A stretch of 64,000 nucleotides of DNA from Actinomycetota bacterium. GTDB lineage: Bacteria > Actinomycetota > Thermoleophilia > Solirubrobacterales > Solirubrobacteraceae. The translations under genes and the position numbers were made by a program. Each line of letters opens with the position of its first letter. Position 1 is the stretch's first letter. Shown here piece after piece: positions 2,468-38,827 of the stretch. The notes under the pieces were generated by a model. The model saw nothing but the letters and a program-made list of their open reading frames with translations. It did not search any database and was not told where the DNA came from. The DNA lies in the NCBI GenBank assembly GCA_009699245.1, contig WLOQ01000010.1, positions 1-64,000 of the forward strand, in the 5' to 3' direction.

Positions 2468-3105
2468 AGCACGAGCCCCACGACGAGGCCGATCGCGAAT
2501 CCCACGACGAGGCAGGCGATCGCCGCACGGTTGCGGCGCAGCCCACCTGCGACGACGGTGCCGACGAGGCCGAGGCCGGAGATCGCCTCGGGCTCCGGGG
2601 CGAACGCAGGCGCGGGAGCGGCGGGCGCAGCAGCGTCTTCGCCCTCGACCTGCGGGGCAGCCTGGCTGAGCATCTCCCCCAGGTTCTTCGCGAAGGCGCC
2701 GACGAGGCGGTTCGAGACGTCCTGGATCGCGCCCTGCCCCATCGATGCGGCGCGGCCGCTGAGCTTCACGTCGACGTCGACGGCTCCGCGCGTGAGCGCG
2801 CCGTCCTGCGTGAGCGACAGCGTCGCGTCGGCGTCAGCGGTGCCCTGACCACGGGTCTCACGCGCCGTGACCCGCAGCACCGCACGGAGAGCGGCCGGGT
2901 CCTGCTCGACGATCTCGATATCCGCCTGGTAGCGCATCGTGATCGGCCCGACGCGCACGCGGATCGCGCCCGTGAACGTGTTGTCACCGGTGCGCTCAAC
3001 GCCCTCGGAGCCCGGGAGGCACGGGGCGACGCGCTCGAGGTCGAGCAGCGCGTCGTAGACCGTCGCGGCGTCCGCCGCGACCTCGAACTGCTGTGCGACG
3101 TTCAT
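2464..3105 (-). CDS. coxG: CoxG-like SRPBCC protein with C-terminal membrane anchor
   Basis: 213 aa. The N-terminal ~145 residues match the CoxG/SRPBCC fold (opening MNVAQQFEVAADAATVYDALLDLE cut here to its first residues MNVAQQFEVAADAATVYDAL; then LPGSEGVER). An Ala/Pro/Glu-rich linker and one hydrophobic helix near the C-terminus (IACLVVGFAIGLVVGLVL) follow. In CO dehydrogenase operons CoxG anchors the enzyme to the cytoplasmic membrane. Here the gene is coupled by 4-base overlaps to the large subunit upstream and the crotonase downstream. This supports a membrane-recruiting role for the molybdenum enzyme of the same operon. Confidence 0.85.
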   Translation of the reverse strand: MNVAQQFEVAADAATVYDALLDLERVAPCLPGSEGVERTGDNTFTGAIRVRVGPITMRYQADIEIVEQDPAALRAVLRVTARETRGQGTADADATLSLTQDGALTRGAVDVDVKLSGRAASMGQGAIQDVSNRLVGAFAKNLGEMLSQAAPQVEGEDAAAPAAPAPAFAPEPEAISGLGLVGTVVAGGLRRNRAAIACLVVGFAIGLVVGLVL

Positions 3106-5423
3106 GCCGAGGCCTGCTCGATCAGTGCGAGGAGCCTGCTGGGGCTCAGCGGCTGCTCGGTGATCGTCACGCCGAGCGGCGCGAGCGCGTCGGCGACCGC
3201 GTTGACGGTCGCTGCGACGCCGCCGATCGTCCCGCCCTCGCCGGCGCCCTTGTGGCCACCGGGAGTGTCGGACGGCGTGACGATGTGACCGATGCGGATC
3301 TCGGGAATGAGGTCGGCGACGGGCAGCAGGTAGTCCTTGAAGTTGACCGCCAGCGGGTTGCCGTCCGCGTCGTAGGGAATGTGCTCAAGGAGCGCTCCGC
3401 CAATGCCCTGGACGACCCCGCCGGAGATCTGCCCCTCGACGACCATGGGGTTGATCATCACGCCGCAGTCCTCACTGACGACGTAGTCGAGGAGCTTCAC
3501 GAGGCCCGTGTTGCGATCGACCTCGCACATGCACACGTGCGTGGCGTTGGAGTGCGTCACGAACGGGGCCGACCAGCGGGTCGTCTCCTCGATACCGGGC
3601 TCCATCCCCTCGGGGAGACGATCGGCGCCGTTGTACGCGACCTGCGTGATCTCCGTCAGCGCCATCGACGATGCCGGGCTGCCCTTGACGGACACGACGC
3701 CATCGACGAGCTCGAGATCGTCCGGCGCAGCCTCCATGAGGTGGCCTGCGAGGTCGAGGATCTTGGCGCGGGCCTTACGGGCGCTCATGCCGGCGACCGC
3801 GCCGCCGATGACGGCGCTGCGGCTGCCGAGGTTGCCGCCGCCGACCGGGGCGCTCGCGGTGTCACCCTGGACGATGGTGACGTCCTCGAAGGCGACGCCG
3901 AGCTCGTCGGCGACGACCTGGGCCATCGTCGTCTCGACGCTGTGGCCGTAGGAGCCGAGGCCCATGAGACACGTGACCTTGCCGCTCGGCTCGATGCGGA
4001 TCGTGGCCGCCTCGATGCCCATCGAACGGCCGCCACCAAAGGCGGTCGGCTCGATGTAGGACGCGATGCCGATGCCGAGCAGGCGCCCTTCGGCGCGCGC
4101 GGCGGCCTGCTCCTCGCGGAACTGGGCGTAGTGGGCCATCTCGACGGCCTGCTCGAGCGTCTCGGCCGGGCTGACGCGGTCGAACACGATGCCGCTGTGC
4201 AGCTGGTAGGGCTGGTCGGCCGCCTGGATGCTGTTGCGGCGGCGGACCTCAGCGGGATCCATGCCGATGCCTCGGGCGACGATGTCGAGCATCGTCTCGC
4301 GGACGGTGGTCTCGATCAGCCATGGCCCGCGGTACGGCCCGCGCGCGGTGGTGTTCGTGTAGTACTGGACGTTGCGGAAGCCGAAGTGCGGCACCTTGTA
4401 CGGACCGGGGAACCACGCGGCCACGAGGCCCGGATCGGCCTCCGCCGGCATCGCGGGATACGCGCCGGCGTCGAGCACGTGGTCGAGACGAATCGCCTGC
4501 AGGAGGCCGTCGTTGTTGACGCCGACCTCGATCGTGATCTGCTCGTGGCGCGAGTGGGTCGCCGCGGTGAGATTCTCCTGGCGATCTTCGATCCACTTCA
4601 GCGGACGGTCGATCCGCATCGCAGCGTGAAGGACGGCCATGTCATCGCGCGCCTGGAAGGCCTTCTGGCCGAAGCCGCCGCCGACGTCGCGCTGGATCAC
4701 GCGCACAGCGTGCTCCGGGAGCCCGAGCGAGAGCGCGAAGTAGGCGCGCGCCACATGCGGCGCCTGGCCTGCCATGTGGACGGTCAGTTCGCCGCCGGCC
4801 TTGTTCCACGAGGCGACGAAGCCACGAGTCTCCATGGGGACCGCGGCGTAGCGGTGCGACTTGATCGTCTCCTTGAACACGTGATCCGAGCCTGCGAACG
4901 CGGCCTCGAGCGCGGGGTCCGGCGGCGACGCCATCTCCGCGACGAGGTTCGTGCCGAGCTCGGCGTGGACGACTGGAGCGCCCTCCTCACCGGCGGCGCG
5001 GTAGTCGACGATCGGCGTGCGGGCCTCGTAGGCGACGTCGACGAGCTCGCACGCGTCCTCGGCGATGTAGCGGCTCTCGGCGATGACGATTGCGACGGGG
5101 TCACCGACGAACCGCACATCCTCGATCGCAAGCGGGTGCTGCGCCGGGACGTTGGCCTCGCTCGGCCACCACGGTGGGAGCCGGGGGAAGTCGTCGGCGC
5201 CCGTGAAGATCGCGACGACGCCGGGCACGGCGAGCGCCGCCTGCGTGTCGATCGACGCGATGCGCGCGCTCGCAAGCGGGCTGCGTACGAACGCTGCGTG
5301 CAGCATGCCCGGAAGCTGGACGTCGTCGACGAACTGGCCGCCGCCCGTGAGCAGGCGCGGGTCCTCGCGCCGCTTGACGGAGGCGCCGACGAACCGTGCC
5401 GCCCCGCCGGTCTGCGCGCTCAT
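3102..5423 (-). CDS. Molybdenum hydroxylase large subunit (CoxL/XdhB-type, non-canonical)
   Basis: 773 aa, the Mo-cofactor subunit of an aerobic xanthine/aldehyde/CO-dehydrogenase-family hydroxylase. The N-terminal aldehyde-oxidase a/b hammerhead begins RREDPRLLTGGGQF and the Mo-binding domains follow (GGGFGQKAF near residue 240). The catalytic Glu near the C-terminus is present (KGAGEGGTIGG, about E729). The active-site loop diagnostic of CO dehydrogenases (AYxCSFR in form I, AYRGAGR in form II) reads GPYRGPWL at residues 362-369. CO oxidation is therefore unlikely and a different carbon centre, perhaps an aromatic, aldehyde or CoA-linked substrate, is hydroxylated. The order S-L-G with 4-base overlaps (5420-5423, 3102-3105) indicates tight co-expression. 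Confidence 0.9.
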   Translation of the reverse strand: MSAQTGGAARFVGASVKRREDPRLLTGGGQFVDDVQLPGMLHAAFVRSPLASARIASIDTQAALAVPGVVAIFTGADDFPRLPPWWPSEANVPAQHPLAIEDVRFVGDPVAIVIAESRYIAEDACELVDVAYEARTPIVDYRAAGEEGAPVVHAELGTNLVAEMASPPDPALEAAFAGSDHVFKETIKSHRYAAVPMETRGFVASWNKAGGELTVHMAGQAPHVARAYFALSLGLPEHAVRVIQRDVGGGFGQKAFQARDDMAVLHAAMRIDRPLKWIEDRQENLTAATHSRHEQITIEVGVNNDGLLQAIRLDHVLDAGAYPAMPAEADPGLVAAWFPGPYKVPHFGFRNVQYYTNTTARGPYRGPWLIETTVRETMLDIVARGIGMDPAEVRRRNSIQAADQPYQLHSGIVFDRVSPAETLEQAVEMAHYAQFREEQAAARAEGRLLGIGIASYIEPTAFGGGRSMGIEAATIRIEPSGKVTCLMGLGSYGHSVETTMAQVVADELGVAFEDVTIVQGDTASAPVGGGNLGSRSAVIGGAVAGMSARKARAKILDLAGHLMEAAPDDLELVDGVVSVKGSPASSMALTEITQVAYNGADRLPEGMEPGIEETTRWSAPFVTHSNATHVCMCEVDRNTGLVKLLDYVVSEDCGVMINPMVVEGQISGGVVQGIGGALLEHIPYDADGNPLAVNFKDYLLPVADLIPEIRIGHIVTPSDTPGGHKGAGEGGTIGGVAATVNAVADALAPLGVTITEQPLSPSRLLALIEQASA

Positions 5424-5908
5424 GAGCGGGCCTCGGCGGCCAGCTGATCGGCAGCCTGGCGCACCGCAGCGATGATGCCCTGGTACCCGGTGCAGCGGCA
5501 GACGTTGCCGGACAGCGCCTCGCGGATCTGCTCGTCGCTCGGCGACGGGGTGTCACGCAGGAAGGCCTCGACGGTGACGATGAAGCCTGGCGTGCAGTAG
5601 CCGCATTGAAGACCGTGGTTGTCCATGAACGCCTGCTGGACGGGCGTCAGACCCTCGCGGCCGCCGCCGATCCCCTCGATGGTCGTGACCTGCGCCCCAT
5701 CGGCCTGGACGGCGAACATCAGGCACGAACGCATCGGCTCACCGTCGACGAGGACGGTGCATGCGCCGCAGACACCCTGCTCGCAGCCCGTGTGGGTGCC
5801 GGTGAGGGCGCAGTCCTCACGCAGGAAATCGACGAGCGTCAGCCGCGGCTCGACCTCCCCGGCATGCACCCGTCCGTTGACGGTCATCTCAACCTGCTGA
5901 CGGCTCAT
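5420..5908 (-). CDS. Molybdenum hydroxylase 2Fe-2S small subunit
   Basis: 162 aa, the electron-transfer subunit. The N-terminal plant-type ferredoxin domain has the Cys pattern CEQGVCGACTVLVDG plus a downstream RSCL. The C-terminal helical domain carries the second cluster motif LQCGYCTPG and NVCRCTGYQGI. All eight cluster cysteines are present, so the subunit looks functional. A GGGGAGA ribosome site precedes ATG 5908, and the stop overlaps the large-subunit start by 4 bases. Confidence 0.92.
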   Translation of the reverse strand: MSRQQVEMTVNGRVHAGEVEPRLTLVDFLREDCALTGTHTGCEQGVCGACTVLVDGEPMRSCLMFAVQADGAQVTTIEGIGGGREGLTPVQQAFMDNHGLQCGYCTPGFIVTVEAFLRDTPSPSDEQIREALSGNVCRCTGYQGIIAAVRQAADQLAAEARS

Positions 5909-5931
5909 TGTCTCTCCCCTGCTCGGTCGGG

Positions 5932-6798
5932 CTACTGGCTGTCGGCGATCGCCTCGGCGATCGCGGTGTTCGCAACGTGGACGACGATCGAGTGCCGGTA
6001 GGCGCTCGTCGCCTGTGCATCCTCGGGCGGCGTGAGGCCGTCCGCATCCGCCTGCAGCGCCGCGGTGAGCTCCTGCGAGCCCACCCCAGCGCCGGCAGCG
6101 AGTGCCGCCTCGGCGGCGGCGAGCCGGATCGGCGCACCCCCGACCCCGAAGGCGAGGACCCGTGCGTCGATCACCGCACCGCCAGACGTCGCGACGCGCA
6201 CGACGCAGCCGGCGAGTGCGAAGTCTCCGGGGCGCCGTGCGACCTCGAAGATCGCGGTCCCCTCGCCCGGACGGCGCACCGGGATGCGCACGGCGACGGC
6301 CACCTCATCCGGCTCGAGGGTTGTGGTGTACGCCGCCTCGAAGAGCTCGGCGGCAGGAATGCTGCGGCGGCCGCGCGTGCTCGCGACGTCGATGGTCGCA
6401 TCGAGCGCGACCGCGGTCGCCGGGTACTCGGCGGCGGGGTCGGCGTGACAGATGGACCCGCCGATCGTTCCGCGGTTGCGGATCTGCTGGTGGCCGATCC
6501 ACCCGGTCGCCTGGGCGAGAACCGGGGCGTGCTCGGCGACGAGCGCGTCCTTCGCGATCGCGGCCTGCCGGGTGGCGGCCCCGATGACGAGCTCGTCGCC
6601 ATCGCGGGCCACACCCTGGAGTTCCTCGATCCGACCGAGGTCGACGAGCTGCCCGAAGACCGCCAGGCGGAAGGCCATCAGCGGGACGAGGCTCTGCCCG
6701 CCGGCGATCGGTTTGGCGTCATACCCCCCGTCGGCGAGCGCCGTGAGCGCAGCGTCGAGCGAGGTGGGAGCGACGTAGTCAAACGCTGCGGGCTTCAT
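5932..6798 (-). CDS. Molybdenum hydroxylase FAD-binding medium subunit
   Basis: 288 aa, the flavin subunit of the three-subunit hydroxylase (CoxM/XdhC-fold, FAD_binding_5 plus CO_deh_flav_C). The two FAD-binding motifs are clear: PIAGGQSLVPLMAFRLA near residue 33 and TIGGSICHADPAAEYP near residue 113. It passes electrons from the 2Fe-2S clusters to its acceptor, NAD, quinone or another. It starts 4 bases after the upstream crotonase stop and ends 23 bases before the small subunit, so all are one transcript. Confidence 0.9.
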   Translation of the reverse strand: MKPAAFDYVAPTSLDAALTALADGGYDAKPIAGGQSLVPLMAFRLAVFGQLVDLGRIEELQGVARDGDELVIGAATRQAAIAKDALVAEHAPVLAQATGWIGHQQIRNRGTIGGSICHADPAAEYPATAVALDATIDVASTRGRRSIPAAELFEAAYTTTLEPDEVAVAVRIPVRRPGEGTAIFEVARRPGDFALAGCVVRVATSGGAVIDARVLAFGVGGAPIRLAAAEAALAAGAGVGSQELTAALQADADGLTPPEDAQATSAYRHSIVVHVANTAIAEAIADSQ

Positions 6799-21538: not shown

Positions 21539-22828
21539 ATGAGCCCCTTTCAGCAGGCCGAGGGACCTGACACGGCGGCCGCCGTCGTCGGCACCCCAGC
21601 AACCCTCCTCGGGGCCGGTGCGGTCCTTGGGATCGACCGTGTCCCGGCACGCAAGGGCCGCCGCGCGGCCGCCCGCCCGGACGAGGACGCGGTGACCCTC
21701 GCAGCCGAGGCCGCAGCGCTCGCGATCCCGGCCGACGCCGACCGCATCGGCGGCATCATCTTCGTGACGACGACGCCCCCGTACCTTGAGGGCGCCGCGG
21801 TCCAGGCGCTCGCCGAGCTGCTCGACCTCCAGGGCAACACGTTCGCGCTCGAGCTTTCCGCCTCGCTGCGTGACGGCCTTGCGGCCGTGCGTCTCGCCGC
21901 CTCGCTCGCCCCGAGCATCGGCCCGGTCCTCGTGTGCGCGTCGCACGCCGGCCGCGGTGATCGCACGATGGGCGACGGCGCCGTCGCGCTCCTGATCGGC
22001 GCGGACGCCGGTGAGGGCGCGGGCCTCGCACGCCTCACCCCCGTCACCTCGACGTCGATTGAGATCCGTGACCGCTGGCGGCTGCCCGGCGACGATGTCC
22101 CGCGCGACGCCGACCGCTCCTTCGCTCAGGAGATCGGCACCGTCAAGCTCGTCAACGACCTGATCGCCGGACTCCCCGAGGAGCTCAAGGCTCCCCCGGT
22201 CGTCGTCGGCCCGGACGCCCGCGGCTCCGCGACGGTCGAGAAGGCCGGCGGCGGTGCAGCCGACGCCGTCACGTCGCTCAGCGGCGTCATCGGCGCCGCG
22301 CATCCGCTGCTGCGCCTCGTCGCATCGCTCGACGCGCCGGCGCTCGTCGTCGCCATGTCGAACGGCCTCGGTGAGGCCGTCCACGTCGTCCCCGCACCTG
22401 CCGGCGCAGCCGCGGCCGCCCAGGTGCGCGGCCTCGCCGCCAACGGCGGCGCCGAGGCCGACCGCGCGATGGCCGACCCGATGCCCGCCGACTTCAACCC
22501 GTACTCCTCCGGACCGCGCGCCTGGCGCGACCGCGACGTCGACCTCCGCCTGGCCGGCCTCTTCGGCCCGGCCGAGGGGCTGCCCGCAGTGCCGGGCCGT
22601 CGTCACCCCGAGGGGGTCATCATCGCCCGCACCGCCGACCACGTGTACCCGGCCGGCAAGGTGACGGAGATGGCCGTCGCGACGATGGACGACGGCGGGC
22701 AGTACTACGGACAGGTCACGGTCGGCGATGACGTCCAGATCGGTGACCGAGTGAAGCTCGTACCGCGCCGCCTCCACCATGGCGGCGGGATGATCCAGTA
22801 CCACTGGAAGGTGACCCCATGCCGGTAG
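21539..22828 (+). CDS. HMG-CoA synthase/KAS III-like protein fused to DUF35 OB-fold
   Basis: 429 aa. Residues ~20-330 resemble the thiolase-superfamily fold of HMG-CoA synthase/ketoacyl synthase III (GAGAVLGIDRVP, IGGIIFVTTTPPYLEG, MGDGAVALLIG). The C-terminal ~75 residues form a DUF35-type OB fold (GQVTVGDDVQIGDRVKLVPR, MIQYHWKVTP) without the usual zinc-ribbon cysteines. At the expected nucleophile site the sequence is ELSASLRDG (residues 105-113) with no Cys, and only two cysteines occur in the whole protein. A non-catalytic scaffolding partner for the overlapping thiolase is therefore likely. Domain pairing is reminiscent of PhlA-PhlB-PhlC and the archaeal thiolase/HMGCS/DUF35 complex. 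The stop overlaps the thiolase start by 10 bases. Confidence 0.8.
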   Translation: MSPFQQAEGPDTAAAVVGTPATLLGAGAVLGIDRVPARKGRRAAARPDEDAVTLAAEAAALAIPADADRIGGIIFVTTTPPYLEGAAVQALAELLDLQGNTFALELSASLRDGLAAVRLAASLAPSIGPVLVCASHAGRGDRTMGDGAVALLIGADAGEGAGLARLTPVTSTSIEIRDRWRLPGDDVPRDADRSFAQEIGTVKLVNDLIAGLPEELKAPPVVVGPDARGSATVEKAGGGAADAVTSLSGVIGAAHPLLRLVASLDAPALVVAMSNGLGEAVHVVPAPAGAAAAAQVRGLAANGGAEADRAMADPMPADFNPYSSGPRAWRDRDVDLRLAGLFGPAEGLPAVPGRRHPEGVIIARTADHVYPAGKVTEMAVATMDDGGQYYGQVTVGDDVQIGDRVKLVPRRLHHGGGMIQYHWKVTPCR

Positions 22829-24006
22829 CCGGAAACGTCGCGATCGTCGGCTCTGCCGCAACGGTCTTCGGAGTCCATCACGAGCTGGGGTATCTCGACC
22901 TGCTCGAGGACGCCTCCCGCCGCGCCATCGAGGATGCGGGGCTCCAGAACCAGGATGTCGAAGCCGCATGGCTCAGCACCGCGGTGACGGATGTCGTCGC
23001 TCTCGAGGGTGAGTCGGGCAGCCCGATCACCGAGCGCCTCGACTTCGCTCCCCGCCCCGTGACGCGCGTCTCCGCGTACTGCGCCTCCGGCATGGAGGCC
23101 GTCCGTAACGCGGCCATCTCGATCGCCGCCGGCGAGTACGAGGTCGTCCTCGCGGTCGGCGCCGAGAAGATGCGCGACGTCACGCCGCGCGGCAGCCTCG
23201 TCGCCCGCACCGGCAATATGACCCACCCGACCCTCACCAAGGGCCGCACCGGGCCGGGCTTCTTCGCGCTGCTCGCAAGCCGCTACCTCGACACCTTCAA
23301 CCGCACGACCGACGACCTGTCGGCGGTCGCGGTGAAGAACCACGAGCACGCGACGCGCAACCCGATCGCGCAGTACAACGAGCCGGTCACGGCCGAGCAG
23401 GTCCGCAGCTCGGCGATGATCGCCGACCCGCTGCGGGTCCTCGACTGCACCCCCACGACCGACGGCGCCGCCGCGGTCGTGCTCGCATCCGTCGAGTGGG
23501 CGAAGAAGAGCGGTCGCCCCTACGCGGTCCTCTCCGGGGTCGGCTTCTCCGTCATGGACGGCTACTACTCGGGCCTCTACAACCCGGAGAACGACTTCCT
23601 CGGGTTCCGGGCGACGCGTGAGGCCTCCAAGGTCGCCTACGCGCAGGCCGGCATCCACACCCCGCGTGAGCAGCTCGACCTCGTCGAATGCCACGACTGC
23701 TTCACAATCACGGAGATCCTCAACTACGAGGACCTCGGCCTCTGTGGTCGCGGCGAGGGCTGGAAGCTCCTGCTCGACGGTGCGACCACGATCGGCGGCG
23801 ACATCCCGGTGAACCTCTCCGGCGGTCTGCAGTCCTGCGGCCACCCGATCGGCGCCACCGGCGTGCGCGTCGTCAAGGAGGTCGCCGATCAGATGATCGG
23901 GCGCGCCGGTGGCCGACAGGTCGCAGGCGCGAAGCACGGCGTCGCTCACACGCTGGGCGGCCCGGGCATCCTCTCCTGCGTGATGGTCATCAGCGCCGCC
24001 GAGTAA
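22819..24006 (+). CDS. SCP2-type thiolase (acetyl-CoA acyltransferase-like)
   Basis: 395 aa. The nucleophilic Cys88 lies in SAYCASGMEAVRNAA. A His is in VECHDCFTITEI and the CGHPIGATG motif follows near residue 337. The C-terminal GGPG (not CxGGG) is typical of the SCP2/Ltp subgroup, which works with DUF35 partners as thiolase or retro-aldolase in steroid side-chain and benzylsuccinate pathways. It overlaps the upstream HMGCS-like/DUF35 gene by 10 bases, so the two are translationally coupled and probably form one complex. It would cleave a beta-ketoacyl-CoA or a beta-hydroxyacyl-CoA. Confidence 0.9.
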   Translation: MPVAGNVAIVGSAATVFGVHHELGYLDLLEDASRRAIEDAGLQNQDVEAAWLSTAVTDVVALEGESGSPITERLDFAPRPVTRVSAYCASGMEAVRNAAISIAAGEYEVVLAVGAEKMRDVTPRGSLVARTGNMTHPTLTKGRTGPGFFALLASRYLDTFNRTTDDLSAVAVKNHEHATRNPIAQYNEPVTAEQVRSSAMIADPLRVLDCTPTTDGAAAVVLASVEWAKKSGRPYAVLSGVGFSVMDGYYSGLYNPENDFLGFRATREASKVAYAQAGIHTPREQLDLVECHDCFTITEILNYEDLGLCGRGEGWKLLLDGATTIGGDIPVNLSGGLQSCGHPIGATGVRVVKEVADQMIGRAGGRQVAGAKHGVAHTLGGPGILSCVMVISAAE

Positions 24007-25959: not shown

Positions 25960-27411
25960 TCAGGCGCGCTCGGGCGCCGACGACACGACGCGACTCGTGA
26001 TCGCGCGCCGCGCGGAGCTCGGGATCAGCAGCGCCGCAAGCGCTGCGCCCAGCGCGGCGATCGCGCAGACGACGTAGACGAGCGTGAAGGCGCCTTCGGT
26101 GGGAGACCCACCGGCGACGCTCGTCGTGAGGATCGTCGCGGCGACCTGCGCCCCGATGGCGCCGCCCAGCATGCGCACGACCGTGTTCACCCCGGAAGCC
26201 GCCCCGGTCTGGTCCTGCCTGACGTTCTGCACGATGAGGTTGACCATCGCCGCGAAGGCGAGACCGAGCGCGAGGCCGACGATCGTGTTGGCGACATAGA
26301 TCTCCCACGGCTCGGAGCGCATCGTCGCGAACATCACGAAGGCGATCGTCGCGAGCACGCACGCGAGGAGCAGCGGCGGCTTGGAGCCCACGCGGCGCTC
26401 GATCGCGCCGGCGAACTGGCCGGCGAAGAACATCCCGAGGGCCGCCGGCGCCTGGTACATCCCCGCCTCGACGATCGACGAGCCAAAGCCGTAGCCCGTG
26501 CTCGTCGGCTCCTGGACGAGCATCGGCGTGACGAGGAACGAGGCGTACATGCCGACCCCGTAGAGCACGGCGACGAGGTTCGTCGTCCACACGCCGCGCA
26601 GGCGCATCATGTGCATGTCGATGACCGGCGTGTCGCTGCGCAGTTCGACCTGCACCCAGGACGCCATCAGGAGCAGGCCGAACGCGAAGAGGCCGAGCGT
26701 CTTCGGCGAGCCGACCCCCCACGAGTCGCTCTGCGTGACGGCGATCAGGGCCGCGCTGAGCCCGAACGACATGAGCGCCGCCGCCGCCCAGTTGATCCGG
26801 CCCGGGACCTTGACCGGCGATGGCGGGACCCAGAGCCACGCGGCGATGAGCGCGAGGACGGTCATCCCGAACGGCACCCAGAAGAGCCAGTGATAGTTCA
26901 GCTGCTCGACGATCACGCCGGCGAGCACGAGCCCGACGGCCGAGCCGATACCGAGGAGCGAGGAGAGAAAGCCCAGGCTGCCCGGGATCTTCTTCGGCGG
27001 CAGCTCGTCGCGGACGATGCCGTAGGCGAGCGGGAAGACGCCGCCGCCGACGCCCTGGATGACGCGTCCGAGGATGAGCACCCCGATCGAGCTGGCGAGC
27101 GCGGAGAGCAGCGTCCCGGCGATCAGGACGACGAGCACGACGCGCAGCATGCGGTCCTTGCCGAACATGTCGCCGAGACGGCCCACGATCGGCGTCGCGA
27201 CCGCGGCGCTGAGCAGGTACCCCGTCATGACCCATGCGATCGTGCCCTGCGAGGCGCCGAAGCGGTGCTGGATGTCCGGCAGCGCCGGGATGACGAGCGA
27301 CTGCAGGAGCGAGTAGCCGAGCGCCGCGAATGCGACGACCGCAAGGGTCATCCGCGGGTTCACCCGCGCACGAGTCCCTCCGGCGTCGTCGGCGACGTCG
27401 GCGCCGGTCAC
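25960..27411 (-). CDS. MFS transporter (DHA2 type)
   Basis: 483 aa, many hydrophobic helices. The motif between helices 2 and 3 is GRLGDMFGKDRMLR (about residue 75) and the helix-5 antiporter-type motif is GRVIQGVGGGVFPLAYGI. The sequence starts with a short charged N-terminus and MTLAVVAFAALGYSLLQSLV. Start ATG 27411 overlaps the stop of the EthD-like gene by 4 bases (ATGA). Within the operon it may export or import the pathway substrate; a drug-efflux annotation alone would miss this context. Confidence 0.87.
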   Translation of the reverse strand: MTGADVADDAGGTRARVNPRMTLAVVAFAALGYSLLQSLVIPALPDIQHRFGASQGTIAWVMTGYLLSAAVATPIVGRLGDMFGKDRMLRVVLVVLIAGTLLSALASSIGVLILGRVIQGVGGGVFPLAYGIVRDELPPKKIPGSLGFLSSLLGIGSAVGLVLAGVIVEQLNYHWLFWVPFGMTVLALIAAWLWVPPSPVKVPGRINWAAAALMSFGLSAALIAVTQSDSWGVGSPKTLGLFAFGLLLMASWVQVELRSDTPVIDMHMMRLRGVWTTNLVAVLYGVGMYASFLVTPMLVQEPTSTGYGFGSSIVEAGMYQAPAALGMFFAGQFAGAIERRVGSKPPLLLACVLATIAFVMFATMRSEPWEIYVANTIVGLALGLAFAAMVNLIVQNVRQDQTGAASGVNTVVRMLGGAIGAQVAATILTTSVAGGSPTEGAFTLVYVVCAIAALGAALAALLIPSSARRAITSRVVSSAPERA

Positions 27412-28112
27412 GCCGAGGCCCGCTCGAAGAGCAGGTTCTCGTGCGTCAGGACGGCCTCGTTGCGGCGGTGATCGAGGAACTCGCGCTCCATGTCGAGCAG
27501 CCCCGAGCCCTTGAGCTCGCCCATGAAGGCGCCCATCTGCTCGACGGAGGCGAACGACATCTCGACGAAGCCGTCGCAGTACTCGGCATCCGGGAACGCG
27601 TGGTTCTGCACGTAGCGGCAGACGTTCCCGGTGAGCGCGGGGCGCGCCAGGAACTCAGCGCCCACGGCGAGCCAGCCTGCCTTGAAGCCGGCGCGGTCGA
27701 CGCCGTCGACGCGGTGCAGCGCCGCGACCAGCGTGATCGGGCCCGGCTCCCCGTCGACGATCACGTGCTCCTCAGTGGGGACGAGGTTGGCGCCGAGCCG
27801 ACGGCCGAAGGTGTCGACCTCGTCGACCGCCATCGTCTCGACGTCATCGACGAGCCCCATCACCGGGTCGAGGTCGAGCCAGATCATTCCCACACCGCCG
27901 TACTGCCCATTGTGCATGCGAGCGATCACATCCTCGCTCACGCCATGCTCACCGGCGACGATGGTGTCGCACTGCTTGTAGCGCGTGTGGTGCTCCCAGA
28001 GTGAGAGCCCCATCGCCAGTGCACCGTGCCCGCGCCAGCGCGCACGGAAGTCGGCGTGGCTGCGACCGTCGGGCAGCGGGGCGAGGTACATGACCTTCGC
28101 CGGATTCGTCAT
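27408..28112 (-). CDS. EthD-like dimeric alpha/beta-barrel protein (tandem copy A)
   Basis: 234 aa. Opens KVMYLAPLPDGRSHADFRAR and appears to hold two ferredoxin-like halves of ~110 residues each (second half from ITLVAALHRVDGVDRAGF). This suggests an EthD/Dabb-type fold duplicated within the chain. The close paralogue immediately upstream (28137-28853) shares RYKQCD, YGGVG and DAEYCDGFVE blocks. EthD domains assist cytochrome P450 ether cleavage in Rhodococcus or act as small ring-modifying enzymes, but no P450 is encoded here. Function is unknown; coupling to MFS and flavoprotein genes points to the same catabolic pathway. Confidence 0.65.
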   Translation of the reverse strand: MTNPAKVMYLAPLPDGRSHADFRARWRGHGALAMGLSLWEHHTRYKQCDTIVAGEHGVSEDVIARMHNGQYGGVGMIWLDLDPVMGLVDDVETMAVDEVDTFGRRLGANLVPTEEHVIVDGEPGPITLVAALHRVDGVDRAGFKAGWLAVGAEFLARPALTGNVCRYVQNHAFPDAEYCDGFVEMSFASVEQMGAFMGELKGSGLLDMEREFLDHRRNEAVLTHENLLFERASA

Positions 28113-28136: not shown

Positions 28137-28853
28137 TCAGTCGACGACGTCGTAGAGCAGGGTCTCCCGCGTGATGACCGCCTCCATCTTGGAGCGATCC
28201 ATGAACTCGTTCTCGGCCTCGGCGAGGCCGGACTCCTGCATGGCGCCCATGAAGGCGAGCAGGTTGTCGACGTCCGCGAACGAGAGCTCGACGAAGCCGT
28301 CGCAGTACTCAGCCTCGGGGAAGGCGTCGTTGTGGACGTACCGGTTGACGCGGCTCGCGAGCTCCGGGCGGCGAGCGACCTCCTGCCCCAGCTCGAGCCA
28401 CTTCTTCGAGAAGGTCTCGCGATCCATCCCGGCGACGCGGTGGACAGCGCCGATGACCGTGATCGGACCGGGCGCGCCCGGGATGACCTCGCTCTGCACC
28501 ACACCGGTGAGGTTGACGCCCAGCTCTCGGCCGAACGTCGGGACCTCATCGACGCACATGGTCTGCACGTCGTCGGTCTCCGACAGCGTCGCCCCTAGCG
28601 CCTCCGCGTCGTGGAAGTAGATCTGCCCCACGCCGCCGTAGTCGGCGGTGCGGAAGTGGGCGAGGAGGTCCTCCGGGAGGCCCTCCTCGCCGGCCGTCAG
28701 GACATCGCACTGCTTGTAGCGCGACATGTACTTCCAAAAGCCGAGCCCCATCGCGAGGTCCGCATGCTGACGCCAGCGAGCGCGGAACTCGGGATGGGTG
28801 CGGCCGACCACCAGCGGGGCTAGGTACATGACCTTGATCTCACCGGTGGCCAT
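28137..28853 (-). CDS. EthD-like dimeric alpha/beta-barrel protein (tandem copy B)
   Basis: 238 aa from ATG 28853, 5 bases after the hydrolase stop, with a GGGGAG element upstream. Begins MATGEIKVMYLAPLVVGRTH; contains RYKQCDVLTAGEEG, YGGVGQIYF and AEYCDGFVELSFADV, matching the downstream copy block by block. The pair arose by tandem duplication. Two halves (break near residue 120) each resemble EthD/Dabb barrels. A Cys-rich or metal site is not evident. I cannot assign an activity; candidates are a cyclase, isomerase or protective binding protein for a reactive intermediate. Confidence 0.65.
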   Translation of the reverse strand: MATGEIKVMYLAPLVVGRTHPEFRARWRQHADLAMGLGFWKYMSRYKQCDVLTAGEEGLPEDLLAHFRTADYGGVGQIYFHDAEALGATLSETDDVQTMCVDEVPTFGRELGVNLTGVVQSEVIPGAPGPITVIGAVHRVAGMDRETFSKKWLELGQEVARRPELASRVNRYVHNDAFPEAEYCDGFVELSFADVDNLLAFMGAMQESGLAEAENEFMDRSKMEAVITRETLLYDVVD

Positions 28854-28858
28854 GTCGG

Positions 28859-29782
28859 TCAGCTCCCCTGCGTGTGCGCGGTGACGAAGTCCGCAATGTG
28901 GTCGAGCGCCTGCTGCGCGTCCGGCAGGAACGAGCAGTGGTTGTGCCAGAGGTGCGTCATGTCGTCCCACACCTCGATGGTCACGTCGACGCCGGCGGCC
29001 TTCGCCTTCTCGCCGAAGGCGATGCCGTCGTCCTGGATGCCCTCGTCGCCGCCGACCTGGATCAGCAGCGGCGGAAGGCCGGTGAGGTCGTGATTGATCG
29101 GCGATGCGGCGACCTCGTCCTGGCCCTGCATGAAGGCCGGGACGTTCTGCATCGCCAGCTCACGCGTGACGAAGCAGTGGGCGCCGATGTTCGGGTCGTT
29201 CCACGACGCGCCCTTGAACTCGAAGTCCGCCATCGGGGAGATCGGGACCGCCCCGCCCGGCAGCGGATGACCGCCGTCGCGCAGCGCGAGCAGCGTGAGC
29301 AGCACGAGGCCACCACCGGCGGACTCGCCGGCGATCACGACGTTCTCGGCCTTCACGCCGGTCTCCAGCAGCGCGAGGAACGCCGTGACGACGTCCTCGA
29401 CCTGCGCCGGGAAGGGGTTCTCCGGGGCCAGGCGGTAGCGCGGCAGGATCGCACGGGCCTTGGCACGCCGCGCGGCACGCGAGATCGGCGTCGTGACCGT
29501 CTCCGGGCTGCCGAGCACGAAGCCGCCGCCGTGGAGATACATGATCACGCGGCCGGTGTCCGCGCCGGGCGGAGTCACCTCGACGGCGGAGATGCCACCC
29601 AGGTTGATGTCGCGCTTCTCGATGTCGGCGTCGAGCGGCCCGGACCATGTGGGAATGACCGAGGCATCAAGGCCACGGACGGTCGCGAGCGCGACCATCG
29701 GGTCGGAGTCGTCCACGCCGGCCAGCTTGGCCTTGTAATCAGCGACGGCCTCGCGGGCCCGCTCAAGCTCTGCACTTGCCAT
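28859..29782 (-). CDS. Alpha/beta hydrolase, hormone-sensitive-lipase (HSL) family
   Basis: 307 aa. HSL-family signature YLHGGGFVLGS near residue 86 (oxyanion hole), nucleophile elbow VIAGESAGGGLVL with Ser near residue 155, and catalytic Asp/Glu and His candidates in GGDEGIQDDGIAF and THLWHNHC near the C-terminus. It would hydrolyse a short ester or lactone. In this operon it could open a lactone formed by Baeyer-Villiger-type or flavin chemistry (inference). The gap to the EthD-like gene is 5 bases. Confidence 0.88.
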   Translation of the reverse strand: MASAELERAREAVADYKAKLAGVDDSDPMVALATVRGLDASVIPTWSGPLDADIEKRDINLGGISAVEVTPPGADTGRVIMYLHGGGFVLGSPETVTTPISRAARRAKARAILPRYRLAPENPFPAQVEDVVTAFLALLETGVKAENVVIAGESAGGGLVLLTLLALRDGGHPLPGGAVPISPMADFEFKGASWNDPNIGAHCFVTRELAMQNVPAFMQGQDEVAASPINHDLTGLPPLLIQVGGDEGIQDDGIAFGEKAKAAGVDVTIEVWDDMTHLWHNHCSFLPDAQQALDHIADFVTAHTQGS

Positions 29783-38077: not shown

Positions 38078-38827
38078 TCAGCCCTTGAGGACTTCGGGGC
38101 GCCCGACGACGACCACGCCCTGCGTGCGGTCGAGCCACGGCGCCTCGGCCGGGAAGAGCTCCTCGACGAGCGAGGGCTGACCCATGAAGTCGAGCATCTG
38201 CTCGACCGACGAGAAGCCCATGATCGCGACGCCGTCGAAGCGGGCGTCGCCTGCGCCGGTCGGGTCGAAGACGTGGCTCTGGATGTACATCTGGGACCGG
38301 CTGACGAGCTCATCATGGGTCAGGAAGAGGTCGATGAAGTCGCGCCACTGATCGGCGAACTCGTCCAGCGTCAGGTTCGGCTGGCGCTTGAGCCAGCTGA
38401 AGATCTTGATGTTCGTGTCGCCACGGTCGTAGATCAGCTCGTCCTGGAAGAGGAAGGAGTTCTCGATCGAACTGCCGAGGATCTCGGCCTCGTGCGAGCG
38501 CGCCTCGATGACCTCGGGCAGCGCCGCGAGCTCGCCGAGCGCCTCCATGCCACCGGTCAGCCATGCCTGGCCGACGCAACCCCAGGCGTCGCTGATGAGC
38601 CCGGGGCCAAAGAGCGCCCCAGGGAGCGTGGGATCGTCGGCCGGCGAGAAGAGCTGGGTGATCTCGTACCGCGTGACGATCGGCCCCACCTGCTCGAGCG
38701 CCATGATGCCGCGCAGGTGCTCGGCCCATTTCGGCGTCACCTGCGCCGGTGTGGCATCCGCGGGGCACGGTGCGAGGTACATGAGCTTCTGGGCCTCGGT
38801 GGCGCGGCCGACGTGCTGACGGGTCAT
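38078..38827 (-). CDS. EthD-like protein encoded at the end of the liv operon
   Basis: 249 aa. Shares the opening KLMYLAPCPADATP and general two-half layout with the EthD-like pair at 27.4-28.9 kb, but is more divergent (FLFQDELIYDRGDTNIKIF mid-chain, ARFDGVAIMGFSSVEQMLDF near the end). Start ATG 38827 overlaps the livF stop by 4 bases, so it is translated with the transporter. A cytoplasmic protein tied to an importer suggests action on, or binding of, the imported compound. No specific reaction can be assigned. Confidence 0.65.
   Translation of the reverse strand: MTRQHVGRATEAQKLMYLAPCPADATPAQVTPKWAEHLRGIMALEQVGPIVTRYEITQLFSPADDPTLPGALFGPGLISDAWGCVGQAWLTGGMEALGELAALPEVIEARSHEAEILGSSIENSFLFQDELIYDRGDTNIKIFSWLKRQPNLTLDEFADQWRDFIDLFLTHDELVSRSQMYIQSHVFDPTGAGDARFDGVAIMGFSSVEQMLDFMGQPSLVEELFPAEAPWLDRTQGVVVVGRPEVLKG

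Follow-up and report, generated by a model that had tools for sequence, protein, structure and literature searches.

A fused HMG-CoA-synthase-like/DUF35 protein without catalytic residues, paired with a thiolase in an actinomycetotal genome

The gene pair and its products

The window, that is, the whole stretch of 64,000 nt analyzed here from a bacterium of the Solirubrobacteraceae, contains on its forward strand two overlapping genes, P0001 and P0002. These genes and the features discussed below are:

21539–22828, + strand: gene P0001 (ATG at 21539, stop at 22828), 429 amino acids
P0001, about residues 18–310: HMG-CoA-synthase-like pseudoenzyme domain (profile search, AlphaFold2 model, fold search, family alignment)
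P0001, about residues 340–429: fused DUF35-type OB domain (profile search, AlphaFold2 model, fold search, family alignment)
21770..21772, + strand: codon of Thr78, at the site of the catalytic Glu82 of MtHMGCS (114-row alignment)
21866..21868, + strand: codon of Leu110, at the site of the catalytic Cys114 of MtHMGCS (alignment to MtHMGCS)
22205..22207, + strand: codon of Val223, at the site of His238 of MtHMGCS (114-row alignment)
22472..22825, + strand: C-terminal part of P0001 (residues 312–429), with a linker, a shortened Cys-less zinc-ribbon region, and the OB fold (alignment A2, separate model)
22819..22828, + strand: overlap of the two genes, 10 nt, ATGCCGGTAG
22819–24006, + strand: gene P0002 (ATG at 22819, stop at 24006), 395 amino acids; SCP2-type thiolase (22819..24006; Pfam PF22691, Thiolase_C_1, 2.8e-42; PF00108, 5.2e-23)

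The start and stop positions and the overlap agree with the initial annotation of this DNA. Of the five closest relatives, L037, L038, and L041 have the same 10-nt overlap. The P0001 reading frame is real: the frame, the gene order, and the Cys-less motif are kept in four full-length relatives at 41%–46% identity. P0001 occurs as a single copy in its genome (1.95 Mb, 99.4% complete) and has no match in any of the 16 other genomes of the same genus, so that it is rare among near relatives. The same genome contains a separate thiolase with an adjoining canonical DUF35 protein (L009, G000:C1:269631-270940); this thiolase is the only other Thiolase_C_1 match in that genome.

P0002 has the residues that characterize SCP2-type thiolases: the nucleophilic Cys88, the HDCF motif at 292–295 (H292-D-C-F295), and GHP at 341–343. 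GGPG is present at 380–383, and the motif table thus confirms the Cys88, His, and GGPG read initially from the sequence. The best PDB match is 6esq_A (1.2e-61), the acetoacetyl-CoA thiolase from the archaeal complex with HMGCS; other matches are to BbsAB (7PXP, 1.5e-50), Ltp2 (6ok1_A, 3.3e-29), and Sal (9myr_A, 1.3e-25). Neither of the aldolase motifs YDHF and YDCY is present in P0002, which has HDCF at that place.

A pseudoenzyme domain fused to an OB fold

Taken alone, P0001 gives no Pfam match at E up to 1. It matches weakly NF003274 (archaeal HMG-CoA synthase, 9.8e-11) and 6esq_I (2.4e-4), and HMG-CoA synthase models match it far under their cut-offs. With P0001 alone below the reach of Pfam, a family profile is needed for recognition. 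A profile of 20 proteins (P0001 and 19 relatives) matches PhlA best (4e-51), together with MtHMGCS (1.5e-44) and MucA (6e-28), and further MtDUF35 (6esq_E, 1.4e-19, with the C-terminal part), PhlB (1.8e-15), and ChsH2-DUF35 (8.8e-12). The AlphaFold2 model of P0001 (pLDDT 81.8, pTM 0.85) has the fold of the HMGCS/KAS III family. Its fold matches are to 6esq_J (Z 30.1 over 285 residues, rmsd 2.9), Chromobacterium PhlA (9skh_C, Z 29.8), and MucA (Z 29.6), which are to be read as ties, and to Pseudomonas PhlA (Z 29.0). Each of the solved proteins closest to P0001 (MtHMGCS, PhlA, and MucA) belongs to a thiolase complex as one of its subunits. Both profile and fold searches recover the resemblance to PhlACB and to the archaeal thiolase/HMGCS/DUF35 complex that was initially suggested from the sequence.

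The catalytic Cys, Glu, and His of HMG-CoA synthase (as in the archaeal 6ESQ) are all three absent from P0001. The missing Cys had been noticed at the outset, and the alignment with HMGCS and PhlA, run to place it, gives Leu110 in the column of Cys114; the active-site Cys was sought and not found, and P0001 has no Cys in any alignment column up to 15 positions away from that of the nucleophile. In the nucleophile column, Gly is found in PhlA and Glu in MucA. The residue directly after Leu110, Arg111, is invariant in alignment A1, and a Lys occupies this position in MtHMGCS and PhlA.

The C-terminal part has the OB fold of DUF35 (PF12172 and PF01796), with five strands at about residues 358–427 ending in a conserved R-R...GG..Y.WK motif. 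No Cys occurs in residues 312–427, and the four-Cys rubredoxin-like zinc ribbon of DUF35 is absent. The OB fold without zinc-ribbon cysteines described initially is thus present, with the refinement that the preceding ribbon region is shortened and not just Cys-less. The domain matches 6esq_E in profile searches (1.5e-20), and its closest solved relatives, again subunits of thiolase complexes, are MtDUF35, PhlB, ChsH2, and the DUF35 of Shy. In a separate model of the C-terminal 118 residues (pLDDT 71.8, with the OB strands above 75), the best eight fold matches (Z 8.8–9.7) are DUF35 subunits or DUF35-like proteins: 6htj (9.7), 6ok1 (9.4), 6esq (9.4), 5m3k (9.2), 9vbt (9.1), 9vbo (8.9), 9myr (8.8), and 9skh (8.8). 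Ribosomal OB folds come next after the DUF35-type chains (Z 7.6).

In L012 and L013, the sister lineage of P0001, all four zinc-ribbon cysteines are retained. A second clade without the ribbon contains 10 proteins, mainly from Actinomycetota, which excludes a loss unique to the window lineage; the loss corresponds to two changes on the tree. Some of 30 proteins sampled from the phylum lack the ribbon as well. The ribbon was lost at least twice in the fused family. A simple Cys4 pattern scores 28 of 104 proteins as losses, an overcount because many proteins have C-x2-C ... C-x4-C; the true losses, counted by eye, are 13. Since the ribbon aids the contact with the thiolase in some complexes, docking may differ in P0001.

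Family, pairing, and genomic context

A class-wide search gives the close relatives L010–L014 and, at about one-third identity, a bigger group of fused proteins. The HMGCS-like domain is common to all aligned relatives and the C-terminal DUF35 unit is present in most. Among the 20 profile members, Pfam finds OB_ChsH2_C in 17 and the zinc ribbon in 17. In the 114-row alignment (P0001 and 113 other rows, with MtHMGCS as reference), the catalytic residues are missing nearly throughout the relatives (Cys 0/113, Glu 0/113, His 1/111). The 30 further proteins from the phylum sample likewise lack the catalytic Cys and give the same overall picture. The loss of the Cys in all aligned relatives makes it a real feature, but one of the whole family and not of this locus. 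Local decay or a sequencing fault is ruled out, since the loss is family-wide, and the idea that the Cys-less fusion is peculiar to this locus has to be abandoned: it is widespread in bacteria and archaea.

When P0001 alone is the query, neither a profile-free scan of contigs nor a search against plasmids gives a match; relatives are found when the contigs are scanned with alignment A1. In species genomes, 80 loci occur in Chloroflexota, Myxococcota, Thermodesulfobacteriota, Actinomycetota, Bacillota, and archaea. In 71 of the 80, the start of a thiolase gene lies no more than about 220 nt downstream (four of the other nine reach the contig end), and a same-strand thiolase is present at all 30 phylum loci. 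The partner thiolases have Cys88 (108/108), HDCF (96/105), and GHP (94/95 covered). With such near-constant pairing and these motif counts, one member with and one member without catalytic residues is the rule. A profile match is found in 56 of 296 sampled phylum genomes (about one-fifth), a count that takes in some matches without the OB part.

In the tree, the window clade (P0001 and L010–L013) is fully supported. PhlA and MucA fall outside the clade of the fused family and lie with MtHMGCS across one branch (support 100/99); the root is not fixed and the branch separates sides only. Within the same limits, P0001 does not group with PhlA rather than with the other fused proteins. Long branches lead both to the window clade and to the stand-alone proteins of family f5, which makes their relative placement unsure. 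Stand-alone Cys-less HMGCS-like proteins of about 330 amino acids, each followed by a thiolase (L027:1423-2412, and also L029–L036), are found in a different family of this class, whose genomes are small.

Public records call family members OB-fold domain-containing protein, or even hydroxymethylglutaryl-CoA synthase. The latter name is carried by a member on a Streptomyces cathayae plasmid (L163:7881-9266); no aligned relative has the catalytic Cys.

Family members are found in beta-oxidation operons with CoA ligase, acyl-CoA dehydrogenase, MaoC hydratase, SDR, the fused protein, and the thiolase. Operons of the Bacillus type have an SDR, a CoA-transferase, a CoA ligase, an acyl-CoA dehydrogenase, the fused protein, the thiolase, and two MaoC-type hydratases. 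The plasmid copies of Variovorax, Rhodococcus, and Novosphingobium sp. ES2-1 occur with the same gene kinds as the beta-oxidation operons. On plasmid pdjl-6-4 of Rhodococcus qingshengii (L161:7983-10555), the fused protein and thiolase are found with a CoA ligase and the alpha and beta subunits of a ring-hydroxylating dioxygenase; this gene make-up, similar in kind to that of the ibuprofen ipf cluster, suggests that acyl side chains are removed from ring-oxidized aromatic acids. On plasmid p3 of Novosphingobium sp. ES2-1 (L162:7992-14099), the fused protein and thiolase share one operon with separate lipid-transfer and OB-fold proteins (Ltp2/DUF35-like), next to a FadD3-type ligase and a P450.

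The window itself contains acyl-CoA dehydrogenases, a CoA ligase, an SDR, enoyl-CoA hydratases, FAD_binding_2 flavoproteins, VOC and EthD-type proteins, an FAH-type hydrolase, and two FAD_binding_3 flavoproteins, of which one has a C-terminal domain of the aromatic-ring hydroxylase type. The pair adjoins a same-strand GntR-type regulator and does not lie within a complete beta-oxidation operon. Together, the gene contexts in the window and in the relatives indicate organic-acid breakdown. A molybdenum hydroxylase operon at 3102-6798 (a MoCoBD protein with apparent iron–sulfur and FAD subunits, and an enoyl-CoA hydratase on either side) probably belongs to this breakdown island as well. Three related proteins with a K-V/L-MYLAP stretch near the start, larger than a single EthD unit, are encoded at 27408-28112, 28137-28970, and 38078-38827; two are in tandem, and at least one has an EthD domain.

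A candidate heteromeric thiolase

P0001 corresponds to the PhlA/PhlB portion of a thiolase complex, here fused into one chain and devoid of the zinc ribbon. PhlACB (PpATase; 5M3K, 9SKH) also has a Cys- and Glu-less HMGCS-like subunit, a Cys88 thiolase, and a DUF35 protein, the activity of the window thiolase being predicted. PhlA itself lacks the catalytic Cys and Glu and only PhlC acts in PhlACB (PMC6392133); the C88S variant of PhlC is dead, and the full operon has to be expressed. Unlike the window pair, PhlACB is encoded by three separate genes, its PhlB has a zinc ribbon, and it performs a CoA-independent acylation of phloroglucinols. Because the solved PhlACB complex contains just such a partnership of a Cys-less HMGCS-like subunit, an active thiolase, and a DUF35 protein, P0001 is most likely a non-catalytic scaffold, or CoA-site, subunit of a heteromeric 3-oxoacyl-CoA thiolase. 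Of the apparently non-catalytic, fused partner described in the initial annotation, the loss and the fusion are real, but the loss does not distinguish the pair from PhlACB.

All three components of the archaeal thiolase/HMGCS/DUF35 complex (6ESQ) are homologous to the window pair, and CoA binds there at the interface of all three proteins (PMC6392133). Its HMGCS is active, with Cys114 and Glu82, whereas the window version has lost these residues and has HMGCS and DUF35 fused. MucABC of Streptococcus macacae (9VBO, 9VBT) combines an A subunit that is Cys-less at the nucleophile position with thiolase and PhlB-like subunits, but the subunits are separate and the sequence is distant from the fused family (6e-28). 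Benzoylsuccinyl-CoA thiolase BbsAB (7PXP) shares the thiolase and DUF35 in a breakdown pathway (OB domain Z 7.3), but has, per its PDB entries, two subunits only and is without an HMGCS-like domain. In the aldolases Ltp2–ChsH2 and Sal–Shy (6OK1, 9MYR), a thiolase-fold enzyme is docked to a fused DUF35 (OB Z 9.4 and 8.8); there, however, DUF35 is fused to a MaoC hydratase and the motifs are YDHF/YDCY, not HDCF. Fusions of DUF35 to members of the thiolase superfamily, and an active and an inactive member with DUF35, appear in a 2010 paper (PMC2954200).

We consider it probable (about 0.7) that P0001 and P0002 form a heteromeric thiolase, with P0002 as catalyst and P0001 as pseudoenzyme partner, acting at the last step of organic-acid breakdown. 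The homologies, the lost catalytic and zinc-binding residues, the retained thiolase motifs, and the near-constant pairing are computational observations; a physical P0001–P0002 complex is predicted from homology and gene order. In this complex, the acyl group would be taken up by Cys88 of P0002, with the acid/base and the oxyanion hole supplied by the HDCF and GHP residues, and P0002 would convert 3-oxoacyl-CoA and CoA into two acyl-CoAs. The HMGCS-like domain of P0001, with all three catalytic residues gone, would be a structural partner, and the OB (DUF35) domain would dock onto P0002 and help to form the CoA-binding site, a role modeled on the separate HMGCS-like and DUF35 subunits of the archaeal complex and PhlACB. 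The fusion and the gene overlap favor equal amounts of the three domains (1:1:1). What the OB domain does, the direction of the reaction, and the substrate are predictions. The neighbors and motifs point to a beta-oxidation-like thiolysis, and the pair most likely acts at the last, thiolytic step in the breakdown of an organic, possibly cyclic, acid.

The former active site of P0001 could still be of use, for example to hold a bulky acyl chain or to channel an intermediate to P0002, and thereby set the substrate range. In PpATase, PhlA, PhlB, and PhlC together bound one continuous cavity, and the sites of PhlA and PhlC are next to each other (PMC6392133). The domain and fold of P0001 are kept across phyla, and the Arg next to the lost Cys is invariant in A1 (Lys in MtHMGCS and PhlA); such conservation is equally expected of a structural subunit, and this function, which is compatible with the heteromeric thiolase, is a tentative possibility. 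An unlikely alternative is a PhlACB-like C-acyltransferase or deacylase, which would transfer an acyl group to a carbon nucleophile, aromatic or other, or take it from one (Friedel–Crafts or its reverse), with no thiolysis of a linear 3-oxoacyl-CoA. The inventory of parts is that of PhlACB, with its CoA-independent acyl transfer, the active sites of P0002 and PhlC being compared at Cys88 only. The FAD_binding_3 flavoproteins of the window point the same way, as does the Rhodococcus operon with its CoA ligase and ring-hydroxylating dioxygenase subunits, gene kinds that make up the ipf cluster for ibuprofen, where the ipfDE-encoded thiolase releases propionyl-CoA. Against such a transferase stand the separation of the fused family from PhlA and MucA in the tree (100/99) and the fact that most contexts seen, in raw counts of neighbors without background control, are of beta-oxidation with SDR and acyl-CoA dehydrogenase.

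The initial annotation considered a new acyl-CoA lyase architecture. A retro-aldol lyase like Ltp2 or Sal would split a beta-hydroxyacyl-CoA without a covalent step; some relatives have a steroid-type context, the DUF35 partner is shared, and P0002 does match Ltp2 and Sal. The thiolase 6esq_A is a far better match, however, and P0002 has Cys88, HDCF, and GHP, whereas the aldolases have YDHF (Ltp2) or YDCY (Sal) (PMC12329534) and steroid C3-side-chain aldolases are without the thiolase Cys. With HDCF and Cys88 in P0002, a retro-aldolase is very improbable. There is practically no likelihood that P0001 works as a genuine HMG-CoA synthase or KAS III enzyme with a different set of residues: HMG-CoA synthase models do recognize it, far under their cut-offs, and one plasmid copy is so annotated, but Cys, Glu, and His are all lost family-wide. 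Both the Ltp2-like lyase and the active HMGCS were rejected, on motifs and lost residues.

In the open-licence literature searched, we found no paper describing a fused Cys-less HMGCS-like/DUF35 family. What is new is a widespread fusion family, apparently undescribed in that literature, with the zinc ribbon lost at least twice. A broader view, speculative and rather doubtful, is that the fused Cys-less proteins, together with the thiolases next to them, make up a large and so far undescribed group of heteromeric thiolases in bacteria and archaea, in which the dead pocket would be a second chamber for bulky or cyclic acyl groups and would decide the substrate, some branches cleaving acyl groups off ring carbons.

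The current public names hide dead enzymes paired with a thiolase. The natural series in the family, with the zinc ribbon kept or twice lost, can be used for probing the roles of the pseudo-domain and of the ribbon. Recognizing the pair gives a candidate two-subunit thiolase for the breakdown of organic acids, and possibly of steroids or aromatics, in about one-fifth of the sampled genomes of the phylum.
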